Assembly (NCBI GenBank): GCA_020974905.1
Contig: CP087563.1
Location: 1,736,001 to 1,800,000 of the forward strand
Length of the DNA: 64,000 bases
Direction of reading: 5' to 3'
Origin: Planctomycetes bacterium syqfu
GTDB lineage: Bacteria; Planctomycetota; Phycisphaerae; Phycisphaerales; Phycisphaeraceae
Numbering within the stretch: the first letter of the stretch is position 1; every line of letters begins with the position of its first letter. A program made the position numbers and the translations under genes. This document shows, piece by piece, positions 8,251-45,361 of this stretch. The notes beneath the pieces are model-generated. The model saw nothing but the letters and a program-made list of their open reading frames with translations, made no database searches and was not told the origin of the DNA.

Positions 8251-8607
8251 TCACTTGAACATCTGATCCAAACCGGGAATGTCCAGGCCACCGGTGAGTT
8301 GTTTCATTTCGTCTTCAACCATGGCTTGTGCTTTGGCGTGGGCGCCACGACAGGCAGCGACGATCAAGTCCTGAATCATCTGCTTGTCGGCATCGGCACC
8401 TTCGCCGGCTAGCGTGATGATCATCACCGGATCGAGCTGGATGTCGACGACTTCAAACTTGCCATTCATCGTCACCGTCACGGCACCGGCGCCGGAGTCA
8501 GCCGAAACCGTCTTGCGCTCAAGCTCGGACTTGATCTGCTCCATCTTGGCGCGCATTTCCTTGGCCTGGCCCATCATGCTGGCCATGTTCTTGAGGTTGT
8601 CAAACAT
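8251..8607 (-). CDS. ybaB: YbaB/EbfC family nucleoid-associated protein
   Basis: A 118-residue protein matching the YbaB/EbfC family: MFDNLKNMASMMGQAKEMRAKM at the N-terminus, a central VTMNGKFEVVDIQLDP block, and a Met-rich C-terminal helix ending LDIPGLDQMFK. Family members are small dimeric DNA-binding proteins. AGGAGG at 8614-8619 (minus strand) is six bases from ATG 8607 and three from ATG 8610, so 8607 is preferred. The start lies inside the 3' end of dnaX in another frame, giving an eight-base overlap. The dnaX-ybaB order is widely conserved; recR, which often follows, is absent here. Confidence 0.92.
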   Translation of the reverse strand: MFDNLKNMASMMGQAKEMRAKMEQIKSELERKTVSADSGAGAVTVTMNGKFEVVDIQLDPVMIITLAGEGADADKQMIQDLIVAACRGAHAKAQAMVEDEMKQLTGGLDIPGLDQMFK

Positions 8608-10410
8608 CATCTTCCTCCTGGTCGTCTTCCGACAAGTCATCATCATCAGTCTGCATGTCCGGTGGTGGGATCAAAGCCGATTGATCCTCAGCCACCTCGA
8701 CAAGTGAGACGTCAAAGAGTTCGTTAATCTGTTCCACCAATGGCAGCGTCATGGCAGCTTGTCTCTGAGACATGCCACCACCTTGCGATGCCAGTTCTTC
8801 GTGCTGAGCCTGTTTTTCCTGAATCTGCAGCGACACCGGCATGCCCAGAATCTTGCCAAGCAACTCGGCGACCTGCGACTTCTGCCGCTCGGTGACATAG
8901 CTGCGATTGCCCGGCTTGGGTGCGAGGGTCACCATGCGGTCTTCAATGCTGGCGATGACCATGGCTTTACTCATGCTCTGCAAACCCGGTGAATTGCCAG
9001 CGCATCGCCCCACTTCCGCCCAGACGGCTTGGGTGTCCGACGGATCAATCTGGCGAGGTTGCGCTTGAGCTGGAGCCTGCGCACCGGGAGTCGGTTGCGG
9101 TGAAGCGTCAGCAGCTTGCGGACTGGATTGTGGTCTTGAAGGTGCAGCCGGTGCAGCCTGTTGGGGTGGCTGCGATGAAGCTTGCGGGCGTGGAGCAGGA
9201 CGATTGGCTGTAGACTCAGCGGTCAGTTTTTTTTTTGGCCACCCGGAAGGTTACCGCCTTGAAGGACCGCTGAGACATCTGCCATTTTCTCCGCCAAGGC
9301 TAACCGCACCATCGCCGCATCAAGCAGCGCCCGTGGGTTGGAGCTGAGTTTGCAGGTTCGCTGGACATTTTCACAGAGTGCGATCATGTGAACCAGGCCG
9401 GCAGCATCAAAACACGCAGCCTGCTTGGCAGCATGTTCACGGGCATCGTCCGCGAGTTCGACGAGTTCCGAGTCCTTGCCACAGGCAGCGACAAGCATCA
9501 GACTTCGCAGGCGTTCGATGAGTACGTCGAAAAACTGTTCGATGGCAATCCCACCATCAATGAGCTTGGCGGTCTGGGTGAGGGTGTTGCCGATGTCCCC
9601 TGCTGCCATGGCATCGATCAGGCCGATGACCTGTTCGGTTGGGGGCAGGCCCAGCATCTCTTCGAGAATTTTGGCTGTCAGCGGTGTTGCACCGGTGGCA
9701 ATGAGTCGGTCCATCAGACTCAGCGCATCACGCATCGAGCCGTTGCCCAAACGAGCGACCTGCCAGATGGCGTCGGTTTCGGCTTCGATTTTTTCCTGTG
9801 ACAACACGTTGGTCAGATGTTCTGCAATGCGTGATGTCGGCAGATTACGGAAGTCAAAACGCTGACAGCGACTTTGGATCGTTGCCAAAACTTTGTGCGC
9901 TTCGGTGGTGCAGAGGATGAACTTCACATGCTCGGGCGGCTCTTCCATGGTTTTGAGCAGCGTGTTGAACGCTTCCTTGGTGAGCATGTGCACTTCGTCA
10001 ATGATGTAGATTTTGTATCGTGCGTTGCCGGTGGGTGCCAGGGAGGCATTACCGATGAGTTGGCGGGCGTCTTCGACGGAGCGGTTGGAGGCACCGTCGA
10101 TTTCGATGACGTTCAGGTCATCACCGGACATGATGGCTTTGGCCATGCGATCCTGGACATCCTGCTCGGGGTAATCGAACTCGCCGGGCGGGATGGGGCA
10201 ATCGGGGATGGTGGCTGGTGCGTTGAGTGCCCGGGCAAAGATGCGTGCCATGGAGGTCTTGCCGACCCCGCGTGTCCCGGTGAAGAGGTAGGCATGGGCG
10301 ATTCGGCCGGACTTGATGGCATTTTTGAGGGTCTGTGCGATGGGTTCCTGACCGATGACACCTTCAAAGGCGGTTGAGCGGTATCGTCTTGCCAGTACGG
10401 TGTAGGACAT
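8600..10410 (-). CDS. dnaX: DNA polymerase III subunit tau (dnaX, full form via -1 slippage)
   Basis: Clamp-loader ATPase encoded in two frames joined at the A10 run at 9227-9236 (minus strand reads GGCC, ten A, CTGA). The N-terminal 395 residues hold GTRGVGKT (Walker A, residues 45-52), YIIDEVHML (Walker B) and IQSRC (sensor/arginine motif). The -1 frame is open from the run to the stop at 8600-8602. It adds a Pro/Ala/Gln-rich linker, then a conserved-looking block (DPSDTQAVWAEV onward) and an acidic tail, giving tau of about 603 residues. MSYTVLARRYRS at 10410 is the expected start. The Cys4 zinc module found in E. coli DnaX is not present. The SRP RNA lies just upstream and ybaB overlaps the 3' end. 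Tau links polymerase cores and helicase at the fork. Confidence 0.85.
9223..10410 (-). CDS. dnaX: DNA polymerase III subunit gamma (dnaX short form)
   Basis: Reading straight through the A10 run in frame 0 gives Gly-Gln-Lys-Lys-Asn and a TGA stop at 9223-9225. The product is 395 residues and contains the complete AAA+ ATPase and domain III but not the tau-specific C-terminus. This matches the gamma subunit made in E. coli and Thermus by ribosomal frameshifting or transcriptional slippage at A-rich runs. The stop comes directly after the slippery sequence, as in those systems. Confidence 0.8.
   Translation of the reverse strand: MSYTVLARRYRSTAFEGVIGQEPIAQTLKNAIKSGRIAHAYLFTGTRGVGKTSMARIFARALNAPATIPDCPIPPGEFDYPEQDVQDRMAKAIMSGDDLNVIEIDGASNRSVEDARQLIGNASLAPTGNARYKIYIIDEVHMLTKEAFNTLLKTMEEPPEHVKFILCTTEAHKVLATIQSRCQRFDFRNLPTSRIAEHLTNVLSQEKIEAETDAIWQVARLGNGSMRDALSLMDRLIATGATPLTAKILEEMLGLPPTEQVIGLIDAMAAGDIGNTLTQTAKLIDGGIAIEQFFDVLIERLRSLMLVAACGKDSELVELADDAREHAAKQAACFDAAGLVHMIALCENVQRTCKLSSNPRALLDAAMVRLALAEKMADVSAVLQGGNLPGGQKKN
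9227..9236 (-). promoter_or_regulatory. A10 slippery site for gamma/tau production
   Basis: Ten consecutive A residues on the coding strand are followed by C and then TGA in frame 0. The downstream tau frame is -1 relative to the gamma frame, so either a -1 ribosomal slip or transcripts carrying one extra A would yield tau. The long homopolymer favours polymerase slippage as in Thermus dnaX. Confidence 0.75.
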
Positions 10411-45329: not shown

Positions 45330-45361
45330 AAAAAAAAAAGCACGATCGGGTGTGATCGTGC
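45330..45361 (-). terminator. Rho-independent terminator after ftsH
   Basis: GCACGATC (45340-45347) and GATCGTGC (45354-45361) form a perfect stem. On the minus strand ten T residues follow (45330-45339). Confidence 0.88.

Follow-up and report, generated by a model that had tools for sequence, protein, structure and literature searches.

The dnaX gene carried on the minus strand of the window (the whole stretch of 64,000 nucleotides analysed here) raises the question of how its tau subunit is made, given that the frame encoding gamma is shut directly after a run of ten A residues and the rest of tau lies in a different frame. The gamma frame runs from ATG to TGA at positions 9,223 to 10,410 (minus strand; 395 aa, with the AAA+ ATPase, lid and domain III) and matches TIGR02397 dnaX_nterm with 378.8 bits (cut-off 250), as well as the Pfam clamp-loader domains. 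At the junction the minus strand reads GGC CAA AAA AAA AAC TGA: the A10 run (9,227 to 9,236; T10 on the plus strand) stands in the phase CAA AAA AAA AAC, a single C separates it from the gamma stop (TGA, frame 0, 9,225 to 9,223), and gamma ends in ...GGNLPGGQKKN*. In the -1 frame a stop precedes the run (ahead of PSGWPKKK), and from the run on this frame is open for 208 codons past KKK, up to the stop at 8,602 to 8,600, so that the tau-specific C-terminal region with its stop covers positions 8,600 to 9,226 (minus strand). The third frame closes immediately (KKKTDR*) at a TGA three codons past the run (9,216 to 9,218, minus strand), which would end the frame of transcripts with two additional A residues or with one A fewer. 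The predicted products are thus a gamma of 395 aa and, provided that the transcript has one extra A, a tau of 603 aa. These results bear out the sequence-only reading, which had described a dnaX with an A10 run, a frame 0 ending in GQKKN and TGA, and a tau of about 208 codons in the -1 frame.

The -1 part aligns with the C-terminal stretch of models built for whole DnaX, the best being NF011512 (positions 406-584 of 585, E 1e-7); since it is only a part of the protein, it scores far under the whole-protein cut-offs of these models. No Pfam family was matched by this part in the profile search, and one further weak match was unrelated to DnaX. Downstream lies a neighbour gene (8,251 to 8,610, minus strand), which we take to be ybaB/ebfC-like, with an AGGAGG just 5' of its start codon (window 8,600 to 8,625). 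The start of this gene overlaps the end of the tau frame and would therefore be reached only by ribosomes translating tau; slippage in dnaX could affect translational coupling to the ybaB/ebfC-like gene.

We consider it highly probable that the window gene is a two-ORF dnaX that makes tau by transcriptional slippage of RNA polymerase. The enzyme would slip on the A10 run, which matches its 9-10 bp RNA-DNA hybrid in length, and would thereby yield mRNAs with A9, A10, A11, A12 and so on, in all three frames. Standard translation of an A10 or A13 mRNA would end at the TGA directly past the run and give gamma, an A11 (or A8, A14) mRNA would be read into the -1 frame and give tau, and an A9 or A12 mRNA would end three codons later, giving a gamma-like product again. 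Both clamp-loader subunits would then arise from one gene without a ribosomal signal; the slipping of the polymerase itself and the ratio of the products are what we infer.

We compared the gene with 179 dnaX loci of its class: 43 from the window's family (f1, represented by all 43 matching genomes), 43 from family f2, 18 from f3, 15 from three smaller families of the order and 60 from other orders; 40 further loci came from the phylum outside the class and were excluded from the closure, SD and tree tests. The regions were chosen by hand from listings (80 family-and-order, 60 class, 40 phylum). Matches were found in 60 of 61 genomes at the default limit, some of these being weak matches that are not dnaX, and at E 1e-60 or 1e-50 in 43 of 51, 354 of 400, 116 of 120 and 112 of 119 genomes. 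Eight family genomes gave no match at E 1e-60 (G004, G005, G027, G032, G034, G036, G062 and G072), five of which had weak matches only in the default-limit search. No tau call was made for L084, L172 and L190, while L062 and L192 run off the contig; L033 carries a stop inside gamma.

An uninterrupted A9-A12 run occurs at the hinge of 121 of the 179 in-class loci, 119 of them being A9 or A10 (A10 in 99, A9 in 20, A11 and A12 in one each), and the remaining loci have A8 (5), A7 (37) or no run of at least A7 (16). Within f1 the corresponding numbers are 38 with A10, two with A9 and one each with A11, A12 and A7. The frame of tau varies among the 121 genes with at least A9: it is frame 0 in 86 (hereafter unsplit), -1 in 29, +1 in four and undecided in two, so that tau lies outside the gamma frame in 33 (split); among the 42 such genes of f1, 20 are split and 22 unsplit. 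Thus the default product flips between relatives, and, as far as can be judged from the genes compared, in those with at least A9 the length of the run is conserved while the frame is not. A further 36 split genes carry A7 or A8. With tau outside the gamma frame in these 33 and 36 genes, gene callers would tend to split or truncate dnaX. Outside the class, 31 of the 40 loci have no run and five have A9 or A10; in one family there, f45, the four loci retrieved (L215, L218, L219, L220) all carry a hinge run of A9 or A10 and read tau in frame 0, and hence the device is not confined to the class. Among named loci L251-L330, inspected for hinge runs of at least A8 only, an apparent two-ORF dnaX with A9 or A10 and a putative tau was seen in a Crocinitomicaceae MAG and two Clostridia MAGs (L311, L312, L325), the gamma frame of these stopping very early, where domain III ends. 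An unsplit dnaX with A9 or A10 is seen in Gemmata sp. IIL30 and Aporhodopirellula aestuarii (hinge run only).

If slippage populates all frames, all of them need closing, whereas -1 ribosomal frameshifting uses two frames only and can leave the third open. In the window gene both non-tau frames close, at one and three codons past the run. The third frame, which encodes neither gamma nor tau, is closed within 10 codons in 29 of the 33 split genes with at least A9 (median 3) versus three of the 36 split A7-8 genes (Fisher p 6.5e-12; 24 of 27 versus 3 of 26, p 8.9e-9, after dropping rows at least 80% identical), and against a null drawn from positions further along the same genes (5000 simulations) closure was seen in 28 of 32 split genes with at least A9 (7.5 expected; L204 omitted for its short frame), in 155 of 170 alternative frames of unsplit ones (43.2 expected) and in 3 of 36 split A7-8 genes (5.4 expected), with no simulation reaching the count seen in either group with at least A9; as the loci are related, these p values and simulated counts are not those of independent samples. 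The exceptions among the split genes with at least A9 close at 11, 13, 17 and 34 codons (L108, L034, L028 and L010, respectively). Of the 86 unsplit genes, 72 have both other frames closed within 10 codons and 14 leave one or both open for longer; hence both layouts look like one device. Taken by frame closure, the pattern fits polymerase slippage in the genes with at least A9 and -1 ribosomal frameshifting in most of the rest, although closure is equally to be expected of other processes that populate every frame, be it sliding by ribosomes or a tract that varies in length at the DNA level. Moreover, the variable direction of the tau shift among genes with at least A9 supports slippage, since this variability is a criterion for slippage in the available part of Antonov 2013 (PMC3711429). 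Five A7-8 genes have tau in frame 0 (L093, L096, L114, L115, L197); in the four that could be tested, 4 of 8 alternative frames are closed within 10 codons (0.7 expected), and these five are possibly E. coli-like, with the shift making gamma.

The alternative that survives best, albeit as an unlikely one, is that transcription is accurate and that tau is made by programmed -1 ribosomal frameshifting. The window site does hold a heptamer in the right phase, A_AAA_AAC, followed by the adjacent gamma stop; it has the X_XXY_YYZ form and is a weak slippery heptamer, so some -1 ribosomal shift may occur. Relatives, chiefly in f2, also look ribosomal as a group, with A_AAA_AAA, G_GGA_AAA or C_CCA_AAA sites, an SD-like motif and a strong fold. 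However, no SD-like motif was found upstream of the run of the window gene (SD z -0.50) and no strong stem downstream of it: the 50 nt following the run have a fold of -5.4 kcal/mol, less stable than those in other windows of the locus (z +1.44). The sequence-only reading had likewise seen no obvious strong downstream stem and had leaned to slippage, a preference that the weak fold and the missing SD-like motif support. The same division runs through the class. The mean z of the downstream 50-nt fold is -0.18 in split genes with at least A9 versus -2.31 in split A7-8 genes (below -1 in 33% versus 92%), and between -14 and -11 there are 34 starts of a GGAG-like motif in the 36 split A7-8 genes, four in the 33 split and two in the 86 unsplit genes with at least A9, the split group with at least A9 showing a slight mean SD excess (z -0.74). 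Furthermore, the A10 run exceeds what a heptamer needs, relatives with tau in frame 0 keep A9-A10 as well, the third frame is shut, and four relatives have tau in the +1 frame; each of these speaks against frameshifting at the window site.

The ribosomal-type sites are themselves varied. Ten further genes have no run of at least A7 (eight in f2, one each in f3 and f6) and carry G_GGA_AAA (8) or C_CCA_AAA (2) shortly before the gamma stop, one codon before it in 8 of 10; in L063 and L064 GGGAAAA stands six codons before the stop, and the fold and SD row for the XXXAAAA genes, which assumes a distance of one codon throughout, is misplaced for these two of the ten. Three A7 genes of f3 have little or moderate SD signal (z -0.45, -0.56 and -1.66). 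The clearest counter-example to the division into two mechanisms is L006, an f1 gene from a sister to the window's genus: its run is A12 and its tau frame +1, yet it also shows an SD-like motif (z -2.31) as well as a downstream stem (z -2.03), so that slippage and ribosomal signals may be combined in it.

If ribosomes slid along the poly-A codons and filled three frames without polymerase slippage, closure of all frames would likewise be expected, and E. coli ribosomes do slide on iterated AAA. Nevertheless, we regard such sliding as quite improbable here: in the accessible text of PMC4363877, the ribosomes of an E. coli cell-free system slide at A11 but yield little product at A9-A10, yet only 2 of the 121 runs of at least A9 in the class exceed A10. 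The accessible part of PMC5009743 gives an RNA-DNA hybrid of 9-10 bp and productive slippage at nine A. From these figures we infer that the run is kept long enough for the polymerase yet short of ribosome sliding.

A broken frame would also result from an indel made in sequencing or assembly, or from decay of the tau domain; homopolymers are error-prone and unbroken relatives exist, but we give this explanation very little credence. The A10 run, in the same phase and with tau in -1, is present in the window and in all three other members of its genus (L002-L005), each from its own genome, while the flanks of the run differ among them. The comparison with close relatives that the sequence-only reading had proposed therefore came out with run and frames kept, and its rule that unbroken relatives would point to an indel fails, because the 86 unbroken relatives all have a run of at least A9 and 72 of them close both other frames. 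Split genes with at least A9 number 33 in the class sample. Between the window and L003, differences at codon positions 1, 2 and 3 number 20, 10 and 55 in the tau frame (55 of 85 at the third position) and 11, 4 and 77 in gamma; tau is thus faster-evolving than gamma yet constrained, and this codon-position pattern indicates that the tau frame is under purifying selection. Among the f1 A10 genes (38 loci), agreement is at most 79% at every base within 12 of the run, so that the conserved thing is the run itself. Nor is the run easily had by chance. Counting both strands, A9 is matched 80 times, overlaps included, in the 7.38 Mb genome; by hand these matches collapse to 64 runs, 14 of them at least A10, and the chance expectation of a run of at least A10 in the 150-base hinge on one strand is about 1e-4. 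The first 30 of the 80 matches, inspected as loci, represent 25 separate runs, 7 of which lie inside an open frame of at least 150 codons and 9 of which resemble terminators, their T tract being preceded by a fold at least as strong as -12 kcal/mol. Judged by these comparisons, the two-ORF dnaX with A10 is real, neither a sequencing slip nor chance.

It is just as improbable that the tau region is a separate polypeptide made by re-initiation near the gamma stop: ATG, GTG or TTG occurs in the first 20 tau codons of 11 of the 33 split genes with at least A9, but no such codon is present in the other 22, the window gene included, and the region is fused in frame in 86 sampled relatives. DNA-level phase variation, by which an A10 tract could grow or shrink, is the least credible of all, as the length of the tract is nearly fixed (A10 in 99 of 121), the alternative frames are shut directly past the run, and DnaX, a replisome subunit, is expected to be essential.

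Several other readings were tried. A hairpin upstream of the run is known to stimulate slippage in a Roseiflexus IS (PMC5009743, in the part available). In our sample a hairpin just 5' of the run ranks in the top 10% of windows of its own gene in 48 of 119 genes with at least A9 (19 of 33 split, 29 of 86 unsplit), in 24 of 119 against dinucleotide shuffles of the local 40 nt (11.9 expected, mean rank 0.45), and the same peak is seen in the split A7-8 genes. The available part of PMC5009743 also relates a suggestion for Thermus that tRNA-Lys(CUU) is a ground for slippage over frameshifting; we rejected this explanation for our genes, as there was no association in the expected direction among 62 genomes. 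The tRNA-Lys(CTT) pattern matched 47 of the 62 (20 of 31 in f1, a set including G031 with its A7 site; 26 of 30 in f2; G049 of f6), bearing in mind that it is imperfect, one f1 match not being a tRNA (L331) and a CTT gene having been missed in G063 (L341) and scored negative; a TTT control pattern matched 61 of 62. A terminator reading of the T10 in dnaX was rejected too, since the run is inside the gene and the preceding fold on the plus strand is weaker than that of the window's other A10 (-7.2 vs -12.1). The second A10 of the window (45,330 to 45,339) is a minus-strand T10 past a G+C-rich stem, terminator-like and downstream of a minus-strand open frame.

Two-ORF dnaX genes of this kind have been recorded before. 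As far as the available part of Antonov 2013 (PMC3711429) shows, that study lists 17 of them, nine with exactly ten A, and proposes slippage; as in the window gene, the gamma ORF is shut right after the poly-A and the tau ORF is in -1. The sequence-only reading was thus right that the run is longer than the nine A of Thermus, but ten A is not unusual for a two-ORF dnaX. The same A10 at the junction is found in the window, the three genus members and 38 of 43 f1 loci. The available text of Antonov 2013 names Chloroherpeton and Chlorobium species only, and a member of the present class may be among its nine A10 genes; in-class flipping, a frame-closure test and turnover to ribosomal sites do not appear in that text. 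Within our partial coverage of the literature, no title besides Antonov 2013 was found on dnaX frameshifting or slippage in Planctomycetes or Phycisphaerae.

In Thermus thermophilus dnaX (Larsen 2000, as cited in the available parts of PMC5009743 and PMC1088944) an A9 run late in the gene gives both products, with stops near the run in the non-tau frames. The window gene resembles it in having a run of at least nine A and both non-tau frames closed near the run; however, Thermus has A9 and tau in frame 0, and the window gene A10 and gamma in frame 0, the 86 unsplit in-class relatives being Thermus-like in layout with tau in frame 0. E. coli dnaX, as described in the available part of PMC5009743, also derives both subunits from a single gene, at an A run that codes for lysine, but it uses A_AAA_AAG with SD and stem and has tau in frame 0, whereas in the window gene SD and stem are missing and frame 0 encodes gamma. 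The same source mentions, as unpublished, Chlorobium phaeobacteroides dnaX, in which, as in the window gene, tau needs a shift and the gamma stop is in frame 0; this gene is said to have E. coli-like stimulators and hence resembles f2 rather than the window gene. Making tau by the shift is the rarer layout according to the same part of that review (Atkins 2016). The window dnaX adds to the known two-ORF A10 dnaX genes; the in-class flipping and the apparent turnover of mechanism are more interesting.

This turnover was traced on a FastTree tree of 177 gamma proteins, in which 53 of 174 inner branches are open. Parsimony gives 18 split/unsplit changes among genes with at least A9; f1 by itself, counted with its one A7 gene, needs 8 of this kind, and 8 changes lie between sites of at least A9 and A7-8-type sites. 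Because many forks are weak, these counts are rough and carry no direction. L009, an f1 gene whose sisters are split and have A10, carries an A7 site at which both the SD-like motif (z -2.50) and the fold (z -2.49) are strong, suggesting that the mechanism was switched locally. In f6, L027 and L050 look like further local switches, their ribosomal-type sites standing among slippage-type relatives but giving weaker signals (SD z -1.68 for L027 and 0.00 for L050; fold z -0.63 and -1.16, respectively). For the class as a whole we favour, with some reserve, the view that an A run of hybrid length acts as a frame-neutral switch: since slippage would fill all three frames, the DNA frame of tau would be nearly free to drift, the default would have been flipped often (a parsimony minimum of 18), and several lineages would have swapped the run for a site of -1 ribosomal frameshifting, be it A7, GGGAAAA or CCCAAAA and in most cases accompanied by stem and SD-like motif, keeping the two products and releasing the third frame.

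Closure of the third frame offers a simple sequence test of slippage versus frameshifting. To supply a subunit of the replisome, the window gene seems to depend on a copying error at one defined position, and its class provides a natural series: the two products are seemingly made either by polymerase slippage, with gamma or tau as the default, or by ribosomal frameshifting. Such a series allows testing how one recoding mechanism replaces another.
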